Shown: piece after piece, positions 2,764 through 17,699 of the stretch
Numbering within the stretch: position 1 is the stretch's first letter
How the letters are laid out: the number at the start of each line of letters is the position of its first letter
Assembly (NCBI GenBank): GCA_009778965.1
Contig: WRFE01000011.1
Coordinates: forward strand, 1 to 34,667
Reading direction: 5' to 3'
Source of the DNA: Candidatus Endomicrobium labiotermitis
GTDB taxonomy: Bacteria; Elusimicrobiota; Endomicrobiia; Endomicrobiales; Endomicrobiaceae
DNA length: 34,667 bases
The notes under the pieces: model-generated
Told to the model about the DNA's origin: nothing
Seen by the model: only the letters and a program-made list of their open reading frames with translations
Databases searched by the model: none
Made by a program: the position numbers and the translations under genes

Positions 2764-3036
2764 TGTCATTTCGGAAAGCAGGAGTCGGATTGTCATCCCG
2801 TTGAAAAACGGGATCCATGTTCGTAGTTTAAAGACATGATAAAGAGATTGCGGGTCGGTGCCCGCAATGACGATAATAGTAATAATGGATTCCGCATCTA
2901 GTGCGGAATGACACAGCAGAGTATTATAGCGACTTCGCGCAGGGTGACAGCATGGGGTAAGGATTAGATTGCGGATCAAGTCCGCAATGACGATAATAGT
3001 AAAATGGGTTCCCGACTAATACTTTCGGGAATGACA
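2764..3036. repeat. Cluster of short palindromic repeats between nrdG and the cobalamin genes
   Basis: The 300-base spacer holds no gene and is almost wholly made of palindromes: 2764-2790; 2792-2818 (GTCATCCCG / CGGGATCCA arms); 2846-2880 (GATTGCGGGTC / CCCGCAATGAC); 2887-2913 (GGATTCCGC / GCGGAATGACA); a fragment near 2930-2950; 2967-3000 (GATTGCGGATC / GTCCGCAATGAC) and 3006-3036 (GGTTCCCGA / TCGGGAATGACA). The pairs 2846-2913 and 2967-3036 are two copies of one composite unit joined by the connector atgacgataatagt. No convincing promoter for the following operon is visible. Confidence 0.85.
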
Positions 3037-4547: not shown

Positions 4548-4891
4548 TGTCACCCTCTCCTTTATCAAGTAACGTGGATTGCGGGTCGGCGCCCGCAATG
4601 ACGACAAAAACTACAATGACGAAAATAACCGGCAGTATTGTCATTGCGAGTCTGCGAAGCAGGCGTGGCAATCTAGATATGAATATGTCGTTTCCGTTAG
4701 CTTTCCGGATTGAAGTGGCTGTCATTGCGGACTTGATCCGCAATCTATTTCTTTGTCACCCTGAACTTGTTTCAGGGGTCGCAGTGCGACGAATAAGGAG
4801 CACAAGCCTGCGACGGGTGCGAGATGTTAGTGCCCCGGAACTGGTAGTTCATATTTTTAAGACTAGATGCTGAAACGAGTTCAGCATGACA
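4548..4891. repeat. Palindromic repeat cluster between btuF and btuC
   Basis: The roughly 390-base spacer contains at least five elements: 4577-4604 (GATTGCGGGTC / GCCCGCAATGAC), 4639-4676 (TGTCATTGCGAG / GGCAATCTAG), 4721-4747 (GTCATTGCGGAC / CCGCAATCTA), 4755-4780 (GTCACCCTGAAC / TTTCAGGGGTC) and 4864-4891 (TAGATGCTGAAA / TTCAGCATGACA). A reading frame runs across it on the plus strand, but its predicted residues are merely the translated repeats. No other gene is seen. Confidence 0.83.
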
Positions 4892-6108: not shown

Positions 6109-6912
6109 GTGGATGAAATGAAAAACATTATAGAACTCAAAAATATTTCCGCGGGATATCATAAAACTGAAATTTTAAAGAATATCGGTTTAGATATACG
6201 CCGCGGTTCTTTTACGGGGATTATCGGCAGAAACGGCGCGGGAAAAAGCACTTTATTGAAAGTTATATGCGGACTGCTTAAACCGTTTTCAGGAACTGCT
6301 GTTCTAAACGGCAAAAATATAAATTCTTACTCAAAAAAGGAGTTTGCCCTTACAACCGCTTTTATGCCGCAAAATGTTGATACGTCTATGCCTTTTAGCG
6401 TTGAAAGTTTTGTAATGTTCGGCAGATACCCGTATATGAATGCTTTTAAAATTCCTTCTAAAAAAGATTATGAGGCTGTTGCAGAAGTTATGGAAACTGC
6501 TGGAATTATGGATTTAAGAAAAAGGAATATCTGTGAGCTTTCAGGCGGAGAAAAACAAAGGGTTTTAATAGCCCAGACAATAGCGCAGGGAACAGAAATA
6601 CTTATTTTTGACGAACCGGCGTCCCATTTGGATATAGGCAGCCAAAGCGATATTATGCGGCTGCTAAGAATATTAAATGAAAAACATAATAAAACAATAG
6701 TCGTAACGCTGCACGATTTAAACGCAGCAGGGGAATTTTGCGATACTCTTGTTCTTATGGACAGCGGTAAAATTAAAAACACCGGCAGTCCGCAGGAAGT
6801 TTTAAACTATAAAGATATTGAAGAAGTATATAAAACTACGGTAATAGTGAAAACAAATCCTATTTCAAATAAACCGTATGTTATTCCGGTAACAAAAAAG
6901 AGTGAAGATTGA
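6109..6912 (+). CDS. btuD: Cobalamin ABC transporter ATP-binding protein (BtuD-like)
   Basis: ATPase subunit of the B12 importer, 267 residues. Walker A GRNGAGKST is at residues 40-48, the ABC signature LSGGEKQ at 144-150, Walker B ILIFDEP at 164-170, and the H-loop in TLHDLNA. The order and the segment FMPQNVDTSMPFSVESFV match the FecE/BtuD branch. GTG at 6109 is chosen because GGGG ends 8 bases before it; ATG at 6118 is a possible internal alternative. It follows btuC in the same direction and is followed by an inverted repeat and then the cobalamin riboswitch, which lies downstream and therefore does not control this gene. Confidence 0.93.
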   Translation: MDEMKNIIELKNISAGYHKTEILKNIGLDIRRGSFTGIIGRNGAGKSTLLKVICGLLKPFSGTAVLNGKNINSYSKKEFALTTAFMPQNVDTSMPFSVESFVMFGRYPYMNAFKIPSKKDYEAVAEVMETAGIMDLRKRNICELSGGEKQRVLIAQTIAQGTEILIFDEPASHLDIGSQSDIMRLLRILNEKHNKTIVVTLHDLNAAGEFCDTLVLMDSGKIKNTGSPQEVLNYKDIEEVYKTTVIVKTNPISNKPYVIPVTKKSED

Positions 6913-6919
6913 AGAGTTA

Positions 6920-6962
6920 AGAGTTGAGATAAGATGTATCTTCACTTTTCACTCTCAACTCT
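6920..6962 (+). repeat. Inverted repeat after btuD, possible terminator
   Basis: AGAGTTGAGA (6920-6929) pairs perfectly with TCTCAACTCT (6953-6962), with an inner AAGAT/ATCTT hairpin. The sequence belongs to the AGTGAAGATTGAAGAGT repeat family also found at 29905-30033. It may end btuD transcription before the riboswitch, though no T-run follows. Confidence 0.5.
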
Positions 6963-6974
6963 AAAATCTGCTGT

Positions 6975-7060
6975 TAAGCAGGGGAATCCCGTGTAAATCG
7001 GGAACAGTCCGGCTACTGTGATAAAACGCATAAAGCGTTTTTAAGTCAGAAGACCTGCAA
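6975..7060 (+). promoter_or_regulatory. Cobalamin riboswitch aptamer
   Basis: The conserved order of the B12 aptamer is present: GGGGAA (from 6981), GTGTAAA, CAGTCCGGCTACTGTGA (B12-box region, normally GCCACTG, here GCTACTG) and the 3' segment AAGTCAGAAGACCTGC (7043-7058). GCAGG at 6978-6982 can pair with CCTGC at 7054-7058 to close the core. It is followed by GCCCCAAGGAGGC, a small hairpin containing a perfect Shine-Dalgarno (AAGGAGG, about 7075-7081), which suggests translational control by ligand-dependent occlusion of that site. The regulated gene should be btuB, but repeats now lie between the two. Confidence 0.9.
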
Positions 7061-7085
7061 AATAAAAACGCCCCAAGGAGGCAAA

Positions 7086-7118
7086 ATGAAAAGACAATTA
7101 ATAATCAATAGTGAATAG
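7086..7118 (+). CDS. Ten-codon minigene directly after the cobalamin riboswitch (likely vestigial start)
   Basis: ATG at 7086 follows AAGGAGG by about 5 bases, the best ribosome site in the locus, and reads MKRQLIINSE before a TAG. The sequence after the fourth codon resembles the short AATTAATAATCAATAG-type filler found next to other repeats (for example near 21990). The simplest reading is that this is the original regulated start site of the receptor gene, cut off when repeat DNA was inserted. A functional leader peptide cannot be excluded. Confidence 0.45.
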   Translation: MKRQLIINSE

Positions 7119-7132
7119 AGTTAACTTTTGCC

Positions 7133-7248
7133 GTCATTACCGAAAGTCGTTATCGGGAATCCACGTTATAAGGAATAGATTGCGGATCGAGTCCGCAATG
7201 ACGATAATAGTGAAAATGGATACCCGACAAAAACATTCGGGTATGCCA
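7133..7248. repeat. Palindromic repeats separating the riboswitch from btuB
   Basis: 7133-7163 is a GTCATTACCGA / TCGGGAATCCA palindrome. 7178-7248 is a third copy of the composite unit seen at 2846-2913 and 2967-3036: GATTGCGGATCGAGTCCGC, the connector atgacgataatagt, then a GGATACCCGA / TCGGGTATGCCA palindrome. No gene is encoded. Confidence 0.85.
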
Positions 7249-7286
7249 CTACTCTTAGATTGGTTAAGATAAAAAAGGAAAAATAA

Positions 7287-9107
7287 ATGAAAAAAATAAT
7301 ATCAGCATTGTTGCTTACAGTTTTCGCGGCAAATATTGCTTTTGCGCAGCAGGAAGTATTTTTAACTCTTACAAAATATGAGGAAGCGATAGAAAGATTA
7401 CCCACTAATGTTACGGTTATTACGCAGGAACAAATAGAAAAAAGCAACGCCGCTTCAGTCGCGGATCTTTTACAGAGCGAAGTCGGTATAAACGTCAGAC
7501 AATACGGAAGTATAGGCTCCGCGGCGTCGGTTTCAATAAGAGGCGCGGATTCCAAACATACTTTGGTTTTGCTTGACGGAAGAAGAATAAACGACGCCGG
7601 TCTCGGAAGCGCGGATTGGACAGCTCTTCCGCTTGTAAATATCGAAAGAATCGAAATTATAAGAGGAGCGGGAGCGGCTGTTTACGGAACGAACGGTTTT
7701 GGCGGAGTAGTAAATATAATTACGAAAAGAGCGACTCCCAAGTCTCCTTTAGTTGACGCGAATATTTCCTATGGAAGTTTTAATACTTTCACCGCCTCTT
7801 TAACAGGCGCATATTCCGATGAAAAACATGCCATACTTGCCGCTGCGTCGAATATTTCAAGCGACGGGGACAGAGAGAGTTCTAATTTCAGAAATTTCAA
7901 CGGTTTTTTTAATACTTCGTATAATGTTTCGGAAAAAGTTCAATTTAATTTAACCGGAAACATTTATGAAGGAATACTTATGACTCCGGGATCCGCATTT
8001 TTTGCTCCTTATGAAGCGCGCCAAAACGATTCCAGCCGCTACGCAAAACTAGACTCCAATATTTTGCTTAACGAAGATTCGTCTCTTCTTGTTTCGGTAT
8101 ATGGTTCCGCAGCTGAAAGAAGATATAGAGATACGTACGGTTCGGATGATAATTATACGAATGAAACCGTCGGAACACAGGCGGATTATGTCTGGAAAAA
8201 GTTATTGGTGGGAGCGGAGTGGTGGAACGAACAGTATGAAAAAAAAGACAATATAGTGAATGTCATTATGACCGACAAGAGCAGGGTAAATTCGGCGGTT
8301 TACGCCCAATATAATCTTGAATTAGGAAAATTTTCTTTGATACCCACTTTGAGAGGCGACAGCAATTCTTCTTTCGGCGAAGTTTTTACGCCGGCAGTGT
8401 CAGCTGTTTATAATCTAAACGAAAAAATAAAGTTTTCCGCGAATTCCGGGAGAGTATGGAGAGCGCCGAGTTTTAGCGAGTTATACGATGATTATATTTG
8501 GGGAATGCCGGATTGGGATTTTTACGGAAACCCTGATTTAAAGCCGGAATACGGCATTTCAAGCGATATAGGAGCAGAGTATGTTTACAAAAGAATAAAG
8601 TTAGTTGTTTCGGCTTATTATATAGCTACTGACAATTTAATCAATACGGATTTTATTCCTTCTTACGGAACTACGTATGTAAACGTTGATAAAACGCGCC
8701 AGTATGGTTTTGAATTTGCCGCGGGTTATATTACAAACTCATGGCTAAGCCATAATTTCAACTATACGTATCTGAAAGCCGAAGACGCAAAGACCGGAAA
8801 AACGTTAAGCTACAGACCGGAAAGCACCATTAATTATGATTTAACGGTTAAACCCGTAAAAGATTTGTCAATTACCGCGTCAAATTTTTACAGAAGCAGC
8901 CAGCTTACCGGCGAATATACAGGTTCTCCGCGTCCGCAAAAACTGGACGGCTTTTATACTCTTGATTTAAACATAAATTACTCGGTGGATAAAAATTTGG
9001 GTTTGTGGCTGAAAGGACTTAACTTAACAAATACTAAATATGAAATGATGTCGGGTTATCCTATGCCGGGAGCGGTTGTTTACGGGGGAGTAAGATACGC
9101 TTTCTGA
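7287..9107 (+). CDS. btuB: TonB-dependent outer-membrane receptor, probable vitamin B12 receptor (BtuB-like)
   Basis: 22-stranded barrel with an N-terminal plug that imports its ligand across the outer membrane using TonB energy. A signal peptide (MKKIISALLLTVFAANIAFA) is followed by a plug domain at about residues 25-145, with NVTVITQEQIEKS, VSIRGADSKHTLVLLDGRR, IERIEIIRGAGAAVYGTNG and GGVVNIITK. The barrel follows and ends in the aromatic terminus GGVRYAF expected for Bam-dependent insertion. The 606 residues match E. coli BtuB (about 614). The cobalamin riboswitch 230 bases upstream and the btuFCD/cobO neighbours point to B12. Its ribosome site is a modest AAGGA about 9 bases before ATG at 7287. 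No tonB/exbBD genes are present in the window. Confidence 0.92.
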   Translation: MKKIISALLLTVFAANIAFAQQEVFLTLTKYEEAIERLPTNVTVITQEQIEKSNAASVADLLQSEVGINVRQYGSIGSAASVSIRGADSKHTLVLLDGRRINDAGLGSADWTALPLVNIERIEIIRGAGAAVYGTNGFGGVVNIITKRATPKSPLVDANISYGSFNTFTASLTGAYSDEKHAILAAASNISSDGDRESSNFRNFNGFFNTSYNVSEKVQFNLTGNIYEGILMTPGSAFFAPYEARQNDSSRYAKLDSNILLNEDSSLLVSVYGSAAERRYRDTYGSDDNYTNETVGTQADYVWKKLLVGAEWWNEQYEKKDNIVNVIMTDKSRVNSAVYAQYNLELGKFSLIPTLRGDSNSSFGEVFTPAVSAVYNLNEKIKFSANSGRVWRAPSFSELYDDYIWGMPDWDFYGNPDLKPEYGISSDIGAEYVYKRIKLVVSAYYIATDNLINTDFIPSYGTTYVNVDKTRQYGFEFAAGYITNSWLSHNFNYTYLKAEDAKTGKTLSYRPESTINYDLTVKPVKDLSITASNFYRSSQLTGEYTGSPRPQKLDGFYTLDLNINYSVDKNLGLWLKGLNLTNTKYEMMSGYPMPGAVVYGGVRYAF

Positions 9108-12000: not shown

Positions 12001-12125
12001 ACTGGTGTAGGCGAAATTGGAGTTCGTAAGGGCATAGTGACGGGTTGCCGTAGTTGCTGTCGTACTTGCGAAAGCTGGGATTCATATATATTACATTTTT
12101 AATGTTTTTAAAAACGGAGGAGAAA

Positions 12126-15100
12126 ATGTTCAAGAAATTAAAAATCAAAACGCTGGCGGTTATGGTCTTTTCATTTTGTTTTTACGGAGGATTGTTTGCT
12201 ACCAATGTCAATAACTGGGCTGATTTGAACAACGCGGTTAATTCAAAAGACACAACTATAACATTTACAACAACTACGCTACAGTTTAGCAATAAGCTTT
12301 CGACGGTAAATTATTCGAATTCAATCAATTTTTACGGCGATGTAACGCTTGACGGCAACGGTCTTTGCAGAGCATTTTACTTTAACGATGCGCCGTTTAT
12401 TAATACAGCGGTTGTATTTAACAGCGATATAAATTTTGTAAATTTTACGGCAACAACCGGCGTAGTGCTGTCTCAGTTAATCGGCGGAGTGATATTGTCG
12501 TCAAATTCAACGGTAAGCTTTGCCGGCGCTGTAAACTTTAGCGGCAATACGGCGGATTTTTGCGGCGGAGCTATATATTCAGATATGTCAATAATGAATT
12601 TTAATACAAATAATAAAAATATAATATTTGATTCAAACCGCTCAAATTTTGAAAAAGGAGGAGCGATATATATAATCAGGTCAGTTTCGAGTTTCAGCCA
12701 GTCGCTTATGAATTTCTCCACGGTAAACGGCGATATTATATTCAGTTCAAACTGTGCGGGTTATGGCGGCGGAGCGATATATGCGTCTAAATCAACAATG
12801 AGTTTTACCGCAACTAATGGGGATATAATATTCAGTTCAAACACCTCAACATCCAGCGCCGGCGGCGGACGCGGCGGTGCGGCATATGCGGATCAGTCAA
12901 TAATGAATTTTAATGTTTCAACCGGTAATATAATATTCAATTCAAATGCTTCGTTTTCTCATGGCGGAGCGATAGCCGCAGAGCAGTCGAAAATTGATTT
13001 TAACGCGATAAACGGTAATATAATATTTGATTCAAATATGTCCAATTTAGACGGAGGAGCAATACATGCAAGTCAGTCGACAATGAGTTTTAGAGCGACA
13101 AACGGGGATATAGTATTCAATTCAAATGTTTCGCTTTCTCACGGCGGAGCGATATATAATACTGATAATTCAACAATAACTTTTTCAAACGCAAATGTAA
13201 TTTTCAGCAGCAATGCGGCAATTTCCGGCGGAGCAATACGTAATTATGATAATGCAAAAATGACTTTTAAAGACGCGAATGTAATTTTCAGCAACAATGC
13301 GGCAGGCGTATACGGCGGAGCTATAAGTAATTATGGTTCTATATCATTTATCGGAAGCACGGTAATCTTTAGCAGTAATAGCGCCAGAGCGATATACAAT
13401 AGTAATTATGGAGCAACAATAACGTTTATAAATGCAAATGTTACTTTTAACGGAAATAGCGGTGCAATATGCAATTATTATCATTCAAGAATATTGTTTA
13501 CAGAAAGTACGGTAACTTTCAGCGGGAATACGGCAGCTTATGGCGGAGCGATATGGAATTACGGAAGCGGTGATATCGTCAGTGGTTCGTTAATAACCTT
13601 TTCAAACAGCAATGTAATATTTGATGGCAATGTCGCTTTAAGTTCAGGTGGCGCGATATTCAATCAATACAGGTCAACAATAACTTTTACAGGCGCAAAT
13701 GTAATCTTTAGCGGCAATACGGCAGATAATGGCGGAGCGATATACAGCAATGGCACAGGTATTTTAAATTCTATAATAAACTTTACAAACTCAAATGTAA
13801 TATTTGACGGCAATATTGCTGCAAGTTCCGGCGGAGCGATATACAACAACAACCACAGCAACAGCAGAATAAATTTTGAAACGGCATCAGGAATCACAAT
13901 AACATTTATAAATAATTATGCCGCTTTTGGAAATGATATATACAACGACGGAATAATAAATATAAGCGGTGCTGGCAACATAATATTCGGCGGCGGGATA
14001 GAAGGCGCCGGAACAATAAACAAAAGCGGTACGGGAAACGTATATTTTGAAGCAGGTTCTAAAAATGATTTCGGAATTCTTAATTTAACCGGCGGAAATG
14101 TACATTTTTCAACGTCTGCAAAAATAAACAGCATGAATGTCGGAGCGGCGGGAACGTTATCTTTAGATGTAGATTTTATAGGTTCGCTGACAAGCGTGCT
14201 GTATTTTGACAATATAACTATAAGCACTACAAACAGTAAGCTGAATATTAATGATATATCGGCAGGAGCGGTATCGCAAGGAGCAGAGAGAGCTATATTT
14301 TATTCAAACACGCAAAACAGCGGAACATTCGGAGCCGGCAATATATATGATTTGTCAAGCGGAAGCACGACAAGTTATAAATTGTCATGGGTGTCCGGAC
14401 TTTATGACGGCGGATACAGTTGGATGGGACTTTTAACTTATGGCAGCCTGGGTCAGTGGAACACATTTGCAGCGGGATATAAAGCGGTAACTTCAGGAAA
14501 TACGATAAATTTAACAAGTAATATAACTGCAACAAGCGGCGATGAAAATCCTTTTGGTTTGCCGGGATACAATAATATTACAATAGACGGATTAGGAAAT
14601 ACTATTGACGCTGACGGAAGAGCAGGGCTTGGTTTTATTTTTGATGGTTCATCAATAACATTTAGGGATATAAATTTTGAAAAATTCATTACAACGGCAA
14701 CATATGGTGGTGTAATATCTTCATCAAATTCAATAGTAAATTTAGCCGGAGCAATAACATTTAGCAGCAATACTGCGCTGACTGCAGGCGGAGCGATATA
14801 TGCGGCATACGCGTCAGGAATGATTTTTGATGCGGCAGAAGATGATATAATCTTCAATTCAAACAGAGCTGATATATTCGGCGGAGCAATATATTCACAA
14901 TCCTCGGCAATGAGCTTTAACGCAACAAACGGTAATATAATATTCAGCTCAAACAACGCGAATTATGGAGGCGGAGCAATATATGCCGCTCAGTCAACAA
15001 TAAGTTTTACAACAGATGGCAATATAATTTTCAGTTTGAACACAAGCAGTTCCGGAGGAGCAATATCTGCGCAGCAATCAATAATGAATTTTAATGTTTC

Positions 15101-17699
15101 AACCGGTAATATAATATTTAATTCAAATGTTTCGTTTTCTTCCGGAAGCGCGATATATGCGGCATACGGGTCAATGATGAGCTTTAACGCAACAAACGGA
15201 AATATAGAGTTTAATTCAAATACTGCAGGCTATTCCTATTATGGCGGGGCGATATTCGTAAATCAATCAATGTTGAGTTTTAATACAATATACGGCAATA
15301 CAATCTTCAGTTCAAATAGCGCTGGAGCCGGCGGGGCAATATATTTACAATCTTCAGTAGTGAATTTTACAGCAGGCGGTAATTTAATCTTTAATTCAAA
15401 CATCGCAAACAACTTCGGATATGGCGGAGGTATATATGCATGGCAGTCAACAATGACTTTTACAGCCTATAACATAATATTCAATTCAAACAGCGCAAAC
15501 GGCAATGGTGGAGCAATATATGCTATGTATTCAACAATGAGTTTCGTATCAACAGGTGGTAATATAGAATTTAATAGTAATACGACATCATATGGTGAAG
15601 GCGGAGCGATAGATGCTCAAAATTCAATAATGAATTTTACAACAGATGGCAATATAATATTTAGTTCTAACAGTGCAACATATGGTAGTGGCGGCGGAGC
15701 AATATTTTCAGTAGTATCAAAAATGAATTTTGCGGTTTCAACAGGAGATATAATATTCAACTCAAACAGCGCAAGACAAGGCGGAGCGATAGATGCTCAA
15801 AATTCAATAATGAATTTTACAACAGATGGCAATATAATATTTAATTCAAACAGTGTAACATATGGTAATGGAGGAGCGATATCAGCATCGTTTTCAACAA
15901 TGAGTTTCAAAGTAACAGATGGCAATATAATATTCAGTTCAAACAGTGCAAACTATGTAGGCGGAGCGATTTATAATACAGCTAATTCAAAAATAATTTT
16001 CACAGACTCAAATGTAATTTTTGCCGGCAATATTGCGGTAAGTTCCGGCGGTGCGATTTATAACGAGGGGGAATTATATTTTATCGGCGGCGCTGCTGAA
16101 TTTAAAAATAATAATGCTGCGCAGGGCAAGGATATTTATAATACTGGAACGATAAATATTGACGGCGGTGTTTTAAGGTTTCATTCGGAAATATCCGGCA
16201 ATGGAACTATAAATGTCCTTAACGGCGGCGTTCTTAAATTAATGGATAACGCGCAGTTGTCAGTCGGTGATATATTTGTTTCTTCTACAGGCGTTCTAAG
16301 CGCGCAAAACGGAACATTCGACGTTATAACTGTTGATAATCTTACTCTTTACGGATTGCTGGAACTTGACGCCAGCCAAACAGAAAATGATAGAGTAAAC
16401 GTCGCAAATACGGCAAATATCAACGGGCGTTTAAACGTTAAAACAGGGCTTGGCGTTTATAATGACGTTCAGCTTGAAATTATGAATTACGGTTCTCTTA
16501 TAGGCGGGTTTTCTGAAGTTTCAGCAGGGAATTTGGATTATTTGACATCTTATGAACATGACAAATTGGTTTTGACTCTAAATTCAACAGGAACGGCAGC
16601 GCCCGTATTTTCCGCAGTTTCCAATCTTAATTCTAACGCTTCCGCCGCCGCAAAAGCATTAGACAAACTTATAAATACAGAAAGTTACGACAGTCCTATA
16701 ATGCAGGTTGCAAACGTTATAAACGAGATGGAAAGCGAAAGCGCCAAAGCGCAAGCCGTACATAAACTTGCAGGACATTTTCTTGCAAACGTGATAAGAA
16801 ATGCGGCGGCAGACAGCCCCAATAACGAAATATACGATAAAATAAAGAATAACGGCGAAGGACACGGAAGCTGGGCGCAGTTAAAAGGCGGCGTAGAGAC
16901 CTTTAATTCCGACGAAAATTCGCCTTATCACTATAAAGACCATTCCGTGGGAGTTATGTTCGGCTATGATAAATATTCAGAACAGAATAATATCATATAC
17001 GGAGTTTACGCGAGATTTAATAAAGATAATATAAGTTATGGAGACAGCGACAATAAAGCCGAAGGCGTAAAAAAAGGGCTTGGTTTTTACGGCGGTTATC
17101 TGAAAGAGAAATATGAATTAAAGGCAATGCTTTTGGGCAGTTATGACCAGTTTGAAACTCAAAGAGACGTCAGAATAGGACATCTCGGCGGTATAGCAAG
17201 AGCCGATATTAACGCGTTTACTATTAATGCCGACGCTGAAGCTGCTTTGAGATATGCTGTGAAAGAGGATTTAGCGGTAAAACCTTATGTGGGTTTTGAA
17301 ATGGAAAATACTAATTATGGAAGTTTTAAAGAAAGAGACGCCAGCGGAGTAAATCTTGAAGTCGACGGCGGCACTTATTTGAGAACAGCCGTAAGAGCGG
17401 GAGTGGGCGGGGAATACGATAATAAAAAGTTAAACGCTTATACAAGGCTTGAAGGCAAAGTTATTACCAGCGGGAGAGAACCTGTGACGTCAAATAGTTT
17501 CGAGAATACAAGCGTCATTTTTGATTCTGTAGGAAGTGAGGAAGGAGCGCTCCAGATAGGCATAGGCGGCGGAGCCGAATTGAAATTGACGGGAAACATC
17601 AGCGCTTTTGCAAATATCCAAACCTATTTTGCAGCCAGATACAGCAATGTTTACGGTAATTTGGGTGTAAGATATATGTTTGGTAAAAACAGAGAATAA
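12126..17699 (+). CDS. Pmp-like autotransporter with duplicated GGAI/FxxN passenger
   Basis: A type V secreted surface protein of 1857 residues. A signal peptide (MFKKLKIKTLAVMVFSFCF and on, ending near GGLFA) is followed by a very long passenger made of short repeats with GGAI (about 25 exact and several degenerate copies) alternating with FSSN, FNSN or FSGN. These are the two motifs that define Chlamydia polymorphic outer-membrane proteins and imply a right-handed beta-helix. The passenger has two similar halves, each with a Trp-containing header, the GGAI array and a closing DIYNxGxINI segment. The last 280 or so residues (from GHGSWAQLKGG) form the autotransporter barrel, ending GVRYMFGKNRE. 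ATG at 12126 is preferred over the upstream TTG at 12054: GGAGGAG precedes it by a few bases and the signal peptide begins there. Role is probably adhesion or surface variation, inferred from the family. Confidence 0.92.
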   Translation: MFKKLKIKTLAVMVFSFCFYGGLFATNVNNWADLNNAVNSKDTTITFTTTTLQFSNKLSTVNYSNSINFYGDVTLDGNGLCRAFYFNDAPFINTAVVFNSDINFVNFTATTGVVLSQLIGGVILSSNSTVSFAGAVNFSGNTADFCGGAIYSDMSIMNFNTNNKNIIFDSNRSNFEKGGAIYIIRSVSSFSQSLMNFSTVNGDIIFSSNCAGYGGGAIYASKSTMSFTATNGDIIFSSNTSTSSAGGGRGGAAYADQSIMNFNVSTGNIIFNSNASFSHGGAIAAEQSKIDFNAINGNIIFDSNMSNLDGGAIHASQSTMSFRATNGDIVFNSNVSLSHGGAIYNTDNSTITFSNANVIFSSNAAISGGAIRNYDNAKMTFKDANVIFSNNAAGVYGGAISNYGSISFIGSTVIFSSNSARAIYNSNYGATITFINANVTFNGNSGAICNYYHSRILFTESTVTFSGNTAAYGGAIWNYGSGDIVSGSLITFSNSNVIFDGNVALSSGGAIFNQYRSTITFTGANVIFSGNTADNGGAIYSNGTGILNSIINFTNSNVIFDGNIAASSGGAIYNNNHSNSRINFETASGITITFINNYAAFGNDIYNDGIINISGAGNIIFGGGIEGAGTINKSGTGNVYFEAGSKNDFGILNLTGGNVHFSTSAKINSMNVGAAGTLSLDVDFIGSLTSVLYFDNITISTTNSKLNINDISAGAVSQGAERAIFYSNTQNSGTFGAGNIYDLSSGSTTSYKLSWVSGLYDGGYSWMGLLTYGSLGQWNTFAAGYKAVTSGNTINLTSNITATSGDENPFGLPGYNNITIDGLGNTIDADGRAGLGFIFDGSSITFRDINFEKFITTATYGGVISSSNSIVNLAGAITFSSNTALTAGGAIYAAYASGMIFDAAEDDIIFNSNRADIFGGAIYSQSSAMSFNATNGNIIFSSNNANYGGGAIYAAQSTISFTTDGNIIFSLNTSSSGGAISAQQSIMNFNVSTGNIIFNSNVSFSSGSAIYAAYGSMMSFNATNGNIEFNSNTAGYSYYGGAIFVNQSMLSFNTIYGNTIFSSNSAGAGGAIYLQSSVVNFTAGGNLIFNSNIANNFGYGGGIYAWQSTMTFTAYNIIFNSNSANGNGGAIYAMYSTMSFVSTGGNIEFNSNTTSYGEGGAIDAQNSIMNFTTDGNIIFSSNSATYGSGGGAIFSVVSKMNFAVSTGDIIFNSNSARQGGAIDAQNSIMNFTTDGNIIFNSNSVTYGNGGAISASFSTMSFKVTDGNIIFSSNSANYVGGAIYNTANSKIIFTDSNVIFAGNIAVSSGGAIYNEGELYFIGGAAEFKNNNAAQGKDIYNTGTINIDGGVLRFHSEISGNGTINVLNGGVLKLMDNAQLSVGDIFVSSTGVLSAQNGTFDVITVDNLTLYGLLELDASQTENDRVNVANTANINGRLNVKTGLGVYNDVQLEIMNYGSLIGGFSEVSAGNLDYLTSYEHDKLVLTLNSTGTAAPVFSAVSNLNSNASAAAKALDKLINTESYDSPIMQVANVINEMESESAKAQAVHKLAGHFLANVIRNAAADSPNNEIYDKIKNNGEGHGSWAQLKGGVETFNSDENSPYHYKDHSVGVMFGYDKYSEQNNIIYGVYARFNKDNISYGDSDNKAEGVKKGLGFYGGYLKEKYELKAMLLGSYDQFETQRDVRIGHLGGIARADINAFTINADAEAALRYAVKEDLAVKPYVGFEMENTNYGSFKERDASGVNLEVDGGTYLRTAVRAGVGGEYDNKKLNAYTRLEGKVITSGREPVTSNSFENTSVIFDSVGSEEGALQIGIGGGAELKLTGNISAFANIQTYFAARYSNVYGNLGVRYMFGKNRE
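15598..15843 (+). repeat. Two identical 66-base blocks, 180 bases apart, in the autotransporter gene
   Basis: Bases 15598-15663 and 15778-15843 are identical (encoding GGAIDAQNSIMNFTTDGNII) and offset by exactly 180 bases, or 60 codons. The interval thus contains two recombination partners that keep the frame. The flanks of the two copies are also similar but not identical. Confidence 0.85.

Follow-up and report, generated by a model that had tools for sequence, protein, structure and literature searches.

A minigene lies between a predicted cobalamin riboswitch and btuB in Endomicrobium and its relatives

The window, a stretch of 34,667 nt, makes up contig C11 of a genome of 1.89 Mb, to which the closest named relatives are metagenome assemblies of Endomicrobium and Endomicrobiaceae. 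In the window, a predicted cobalamin riboswitch is followed by a Shine-Dalgarno (SD) sequence that belongs to a 10-codon ORF, here called the minigene, and the btuB gene begins only after a further spacer (Table 1). This layout is old, is found across the phylum, predates the repeats present in the spacer, and is not damage caused by them. It is probable that an OFF translational riboswitch acts on the ribosome site of the conserved minigene, the translation of which would license btuB, likely at the RNA level. A wider proposal, of a phylum-old design in which a distant gene is controlled purely by ribosome occupancy of a tiny ORF, at the RNA level and with no start-site masking, coupling, or intrinsic terminator, is put forward tentatively.

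The genes of the locus are in the order nrdD, a radical-SAM activase, a cobO/btuR-type adenosyltransferase, a btuF-type binding protein, btuC, btuD, the riboswitch, and btuB. Because the btuD stop codon is 38 nt 5′ of the aptamer start, the riboswitch is probably intercistronic, between btuD and btuB. No intrinsic terminator was found on the + strand of the leader; the two terminator-like sites both lie on the − strand. The aptamer, which scores above the curated RF00174 cut-off of 31.5 bits (Rfam), is the sole match to this family in the genome; it is a predicted cobalamin riboswitch, with B12 binding presumed from the match. An inverted repeat, AGAGTTAAGAGTTGAGA / TCTCAACTCTAAAATCT, at window positions 6913-6969 overlaps the aptamer match at its 5′ edge, in the part where pairing of the RF00174 outer stem is poor. 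Elsewhere in the window (12054-17699), an 1881-aa ORF with tandem repeats of approximately 84-93 nt resembles a repetitive surface protein. An earlier sequence-only reading had described an aptamer followed by AAGGAGG and an ATG, a 10-codon frame, and a weaker ribosome site before btuB, all of which are present as described, the btuB site with an SD core of just AAGGA.

Table 1. Features of the btuB leader and its neighbours, in window coordinates
Feature	Position	Strand	Basis
btuD-like ABC ATPase, upstream of aptamer	6109..6912	+	PF00005, E 9.4e-32
Cobalamin riboswitch aptamer	6951..7076	+	RF00174, 40.2 bits
UCC of loop L5, which may form a kissing loop with GGA 7077-7079 in the SD hairpin	7008..7010	+	Sequence comparison; inferred
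P13-type hairpin G-C-C / G-G-C, predicted to mask the minigene SD	7070-7072 with 7080-7082	+	Flanking-pair covariation
Minigene Shine-Dalgarno AAGGAGG	7075..7081	+	Sequence; GGAGG invariant across family leaders
Minigene (leader ORF) MKRQLIINSE*, 10 codons, ATG at 7086, TAG at 7116-7118	7086..7118	+	
Spacer, minigene stop to btuB start, 168 nt	7119..7286	+	
Interspersed repeat in spacer, 116 nt	7133..7248	+	80 % identity to G000:C57:5989-6106 across the unit
btuB translation initiation region: A-rich, with SD core AAGGA and predicted to be open	7266..7286	+	Unpaired 0.88
btuB, TonB-dependent receptor, 606 aa	7287..9107	+	PF00593 (barrel) and PF07715 (plug); translation

Among the 29 riboswitch-btuB leaders sampled in the order, 22 have GGAGG 4-9 nt before the ATG of an ORF of 4-10 codons, with btuB farther 3′, and it is to this short ORF that the riboswitch-masked SD belongs; the SD serves btuB directly in the other seven (G002, G004, G005, G007, G008, G014, and G018). 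Likewise, in f26, from a second class of the phylum, the masked SD is that of a minigene in all six btuB-type leaders examined. Among the peptides encoded are MKRQLIINSE (G000 and G003), MERKLIINSA (G082), MERQLNGS (G001), MIFYYQRQ (G015), MIFYYKRQ (G023), and MIKFYQTE (G081). Genus g10 has MKQSFIIDG and variants, g7 has MIFNT and MTILT, other families of the order have MTVNSE, MSTK, MNDG, and MIVIDDR, and f26 has MKIKT, MQIKT, MQVKS (twice), MQIKSS, and MKKLIR. The gaps from minigene to btuB in the order are 51-445 nt, with none shorter and none overlapping, a range that excludes values of 44 nt (G085) and 52 nt (G015), both from an upstream in-frame ATG; with the later start the G015 gap is 70 nt. 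Spacers of 51-75 nt that lack the repeat of the window are seen in G081 (51 nt after MIKFYQTE*), G009 (58 nt after MIFNT*), G019 (59 nt after MTILT*), G015, and G023.

Apart from L158 and L161, the leaders in a 58-leader cross-phylum set are, as judged by eye, mostly of the direct SD-btuB or intrinsic-terminator types. In these two deltaproteobacterial MAGs (L158 and L161), btuB riboswitches precede short ORFs that come after the SD (MMRKDSISQAL* and MKKAVNKNPP*), and each locus has a second cobalamin riboswitch approximately 2 kb upstream. In L101 (Endomicrobium sp. Po218_bin97) and L102 (Endomicrobiellum dinenymphae), btuB is a few nucleotides after btuD with no riboswitch between them, an apparent riboswitch loss. 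A second cobalamin riboswitch precedes an ATP-cone ribonucleotide-reductase-like gene in six loci (L033, L034, L035, L036, L037, and L039), in which a conserved element resembling a hairpin is approximately 60-80 nt past the riboswitch; it is built around AAGAAA(A)CCAGGGTGC with complementary arms on either side, and it matches no Rfam family at the gathering threshold.

In the family leaders, the SD is within a short hairpin of the form N-CC-loop-GG-N′, the flanking pair of which is Watson-Crick in 23 of 25 leaders (U-A in 11, A-U in 8, and G-C in 4; shuffle P approximately 1e-4 with each combination of genus and pair type represented once). The pairing is held in minigene and direct leaders alike. 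Because the flanking pair covaries across the family leaders, the hairpin predicted to hide the SD has been preserved in leaders whose SD serves a minigene. In loop L5, UCC faces the SD GGA in the family and CCC faces GGG in other families; at three pairs only, the L5-L13 contact is suggestive. The idea that the riboswitch gates the minigene, raised in the sequence-only reading, is supported by the hairpin covariation together with the conserved layout (22 of 29), and it is most likely that the riboswitch does gate this putatively translated ORF.

Codon variation in the minigene is mostly synonymous, as in coding sequence. The peptide MKRQLIINSE* is identical in G003, of the same genus, but is followed there by a different spacer, and the three sites that differ between the G000 and G003 minigenes are all synonymous. 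With three clades pooled, 7, 2, and 12 variable sites fall at codon positions 1, 2, and 3, and a hand tally gives 12 synonymous sites out of 21 (binomial P 0.0002-0.009 for null rates of 0.20-0.30), on small counts of sites that are not independent. The chance that one ATG meets a stop within approximately 11 codons is 46-73 %, therefore a single short ORF is uninformative; across 10 genera or families, the short length is weakly non-random (product approximately 0.004). Both the synonymous bias and the short ORF length could partly reflect shared ancestry.

In the mechanism proposed, the L5-L13 contact would stabilise the P13 hairpin when B12 is bound and so hide the minigene SD, as the covariation suggests. 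Without B12, a ribosome would load at AAGGAGG and read the 4-10-codon ORF; its presence would limit Rho-dependent termination or RNase E-type decay between btuD and btuB, licensing btuB, the translation of which would then begin at its own open ribosome site. Unless ribosomes use the minigene, the interval of approximately 374 nt from btuD to btuB would go untranslated, and genes for Rho and RNase E/G are present in the genome. Against licensing, the minigene spans 33 nt only and most of the spacer would be ribosome-free in both states. Rho is not specifically supported by the sequence because no rut-like composition was found in the leader, where C-rich stretches are not enriched (maximum C/G 1.0, window median 1.38). 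Protection from an RNase J-type 5′ exonuclease is not favoured, since no RNase J was found above the cut-off. Control of btuB at the RNA level, by polarity or decay, is likelier than direct masking of the btuB start or tight stop/start coupling, because of the long gaps, the open site that btuB has of its own, and the lack of bridging ORFs beyond chance, of an internal promoter, and of a + strand terminator.

Translational coupling, in which a ribosome that has completed the minigene would scan onward and start again at btuB, has been proven for uPPE2-PPE2 in M. tuberculosis (PMC11260477). The shortest spacers (51-75 nt) are compatible with it, as is the f26 leader G279, where an in-frame ATG is 1 nt past the minigene stop, although translation of btuB likely begins 52 nt away. 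Coupling is nevertheless unlikely here, given that gaps reach 445 nt and are never below 51 nt in the order, the opposite of the AUGA overlap at ppe2, and that an SD core precedes btuB itself in 20 of the 21 leaders measured and is GGAGG-like in f26; a stop/start overlap with an SD-less main gene is absent. Two further routes were considered and rejected. A chain of small ORFs bridging to btuB is at the level of chance, with bridging ORFs ending at btuB in 14 of 22 leaders where 13.2 are expected. A conserved hairpin locking the btuB ribosome site was not seen, as the start region across the leaders (with G085 left out of the accessibility calculation) is 0.58 unpaired compared with 0.60 for shuffled spacers, showing no extra hiding.

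Less likely again is the first option of the sequence-only reading, that btuB has escaped control, with the riboswitch a relic and btuB translated constitutively from its own site. Such escape would fit the predicted openness of that site in the window (0.88), the low Rfam score of the aptamer (40.2 bits), and the apparent loss of the whole riboswitch in two relatives (L101 and L102), yet the aptamer, the SD hairpin pairing, and the strong SD have been kept across families and in a second class. An internal promoter from which btuB might escape was also sought, and there is no promoter-like site within 6850-7400, including the interval between aptamer and btuB.

It is improbable that the peptide itself acts, for example through ribosome stalling on a second signal to give a two-input leader. 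The synonymous bias speaks for it, as does the conservation seen inside single clades, where g10 has SFI(I/V)D, g1 and G082 have LIINS, and most of f26 has M(K/Q)(I/V)K(T/S). Against it, no motif is shared from clade to clade, lengths range from 4 to 10 codons, and several lineages keep the riboswitch without the peptide. Least credible of all is that the minigene is a by-product of a repeat insertion that displaced btuB and orphaned a start: a repeat is indeed present between minigene and btuB, but minigenes occur in leaders that lack such a repeat, their state is ancestral on the BtuB tree, and the minigene precedes the repeat.

The history of the arrangement was followed on a maximum-likelihood tree of BtuB, the root of which was set by an outgroup on a long branch. 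The minigene is carried by four genomes from other families and by the entire g10/g11/g7 clade, and the minigene or direct label changes four times on the tree. The minigene state is reconstructed as ancestral, and the direct SD-to-btuB leaders as derived, with more than one origin. In G002, the direct start ATGAAAA aligns with the minigene ATGAAAA, and this leader looks as it would if a deletion had run from one copy of ATGAAAA to another. The BtuB tree does not represent the species phylogeny; because the G000 BtuB pairs with that of G082, from another genus, while the G000 leader resembles that of G003, exchange of btuB or its leader between lineages is possible.

Repeat insertion as the origin of the minigene is ruled out by this tree and by the leaders of relatives. 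The sequence-only reading had proposed that repeats cut the riboswitch off from btuB, orphaning a start, and that the minigene might be a new leader peptide. Comparison with relatives whose spacer lacks such a repeat, set beforehand as the case that would count against it, finds the same kind of minigene there (G081, G009, G019, G015, and G023); the start was not orphaned in this way and the peptide is not new. Its figure of about 170 bases of repeat holds for the length of the spacer (168 nt), of which only 116 nt (7133-7248) are repeat and 52 nt are ordinary leader. The repeat, which starts 14 nt past the minigene stop, did not create the minigene; it was inserted into an older spacer of approximately 52 nt, lengthening it in this lineage. 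The unit has approximately 50 partial matches across the genome, and more copies are at window positions 2842-3036 and 4721-4753, in or near other gene junctions.

Riboswitch surveys usually assume that the masked ribosome site is that of the gene after the aptamer. Here it is that of a minigene, which falls below the length that normal annotation picks up, and the layout has endured throughout an order as well as in a second class. If btuB control does pass via the minigene, annotation as a translational riboswitch misses a layer, and the minigene and direct leaders of one family would be a natural comparison set for polarity versus coupling. Repeat-bearing leaders should be compared with those of relatives before being called broken.

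The established layout in E. coli has no minigene between riboswitch and gene, and it is the SD of btuB itself that is masked, in contrast to the window leader with its intervening minigene. The RNA class and the target gene are the same, and in E. coli the AdoCbl riboswitch of btuB lowers mRNA through Rho, linking the translation block to mRNA loss (PMC11162775). Synthetic ribo-attenuators likewise have a riboswitch driving a leader ORF whose translation sets the downstream gene, however these are engineered, with a 150-bp leader whose junction is TAATG and a hairpin that covers the second RBS (PMC5496857), and no such hairpin is found in the Endomicrobium-like leaders. In the case of the iraD leader ORF blocked by CsrA (PMC5574718), a regulator also acts on a short upstream ORF with the main gene following, but it is a protein rather than a riboswitch, and the coupling proposed is translational. 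In a search of the openly available literature, no report of a riboswitch-minigene-btuB arrangement in Elusimicrobiota was found. The nearest known case is ppe2 of M. tuberculosis, where the SD masked by a B12 OFF riboswitch is that of a short uORF and not of the main gene that follows, and PPE2 requires uORF translation, with termination-reinitiation at the AUGA overlap between the uORF and a ppe2 without an SD (PMC11260477). The leader described here shares the logic of ppe2, btuB being proposed to depend on minigene translation as PPE2 does on its uORF, and lacks its stop/start overlap, having instead an ORF of 4-10 codons, a gap of 51-445 nt, and a ribosome site belonging to btuB itself.
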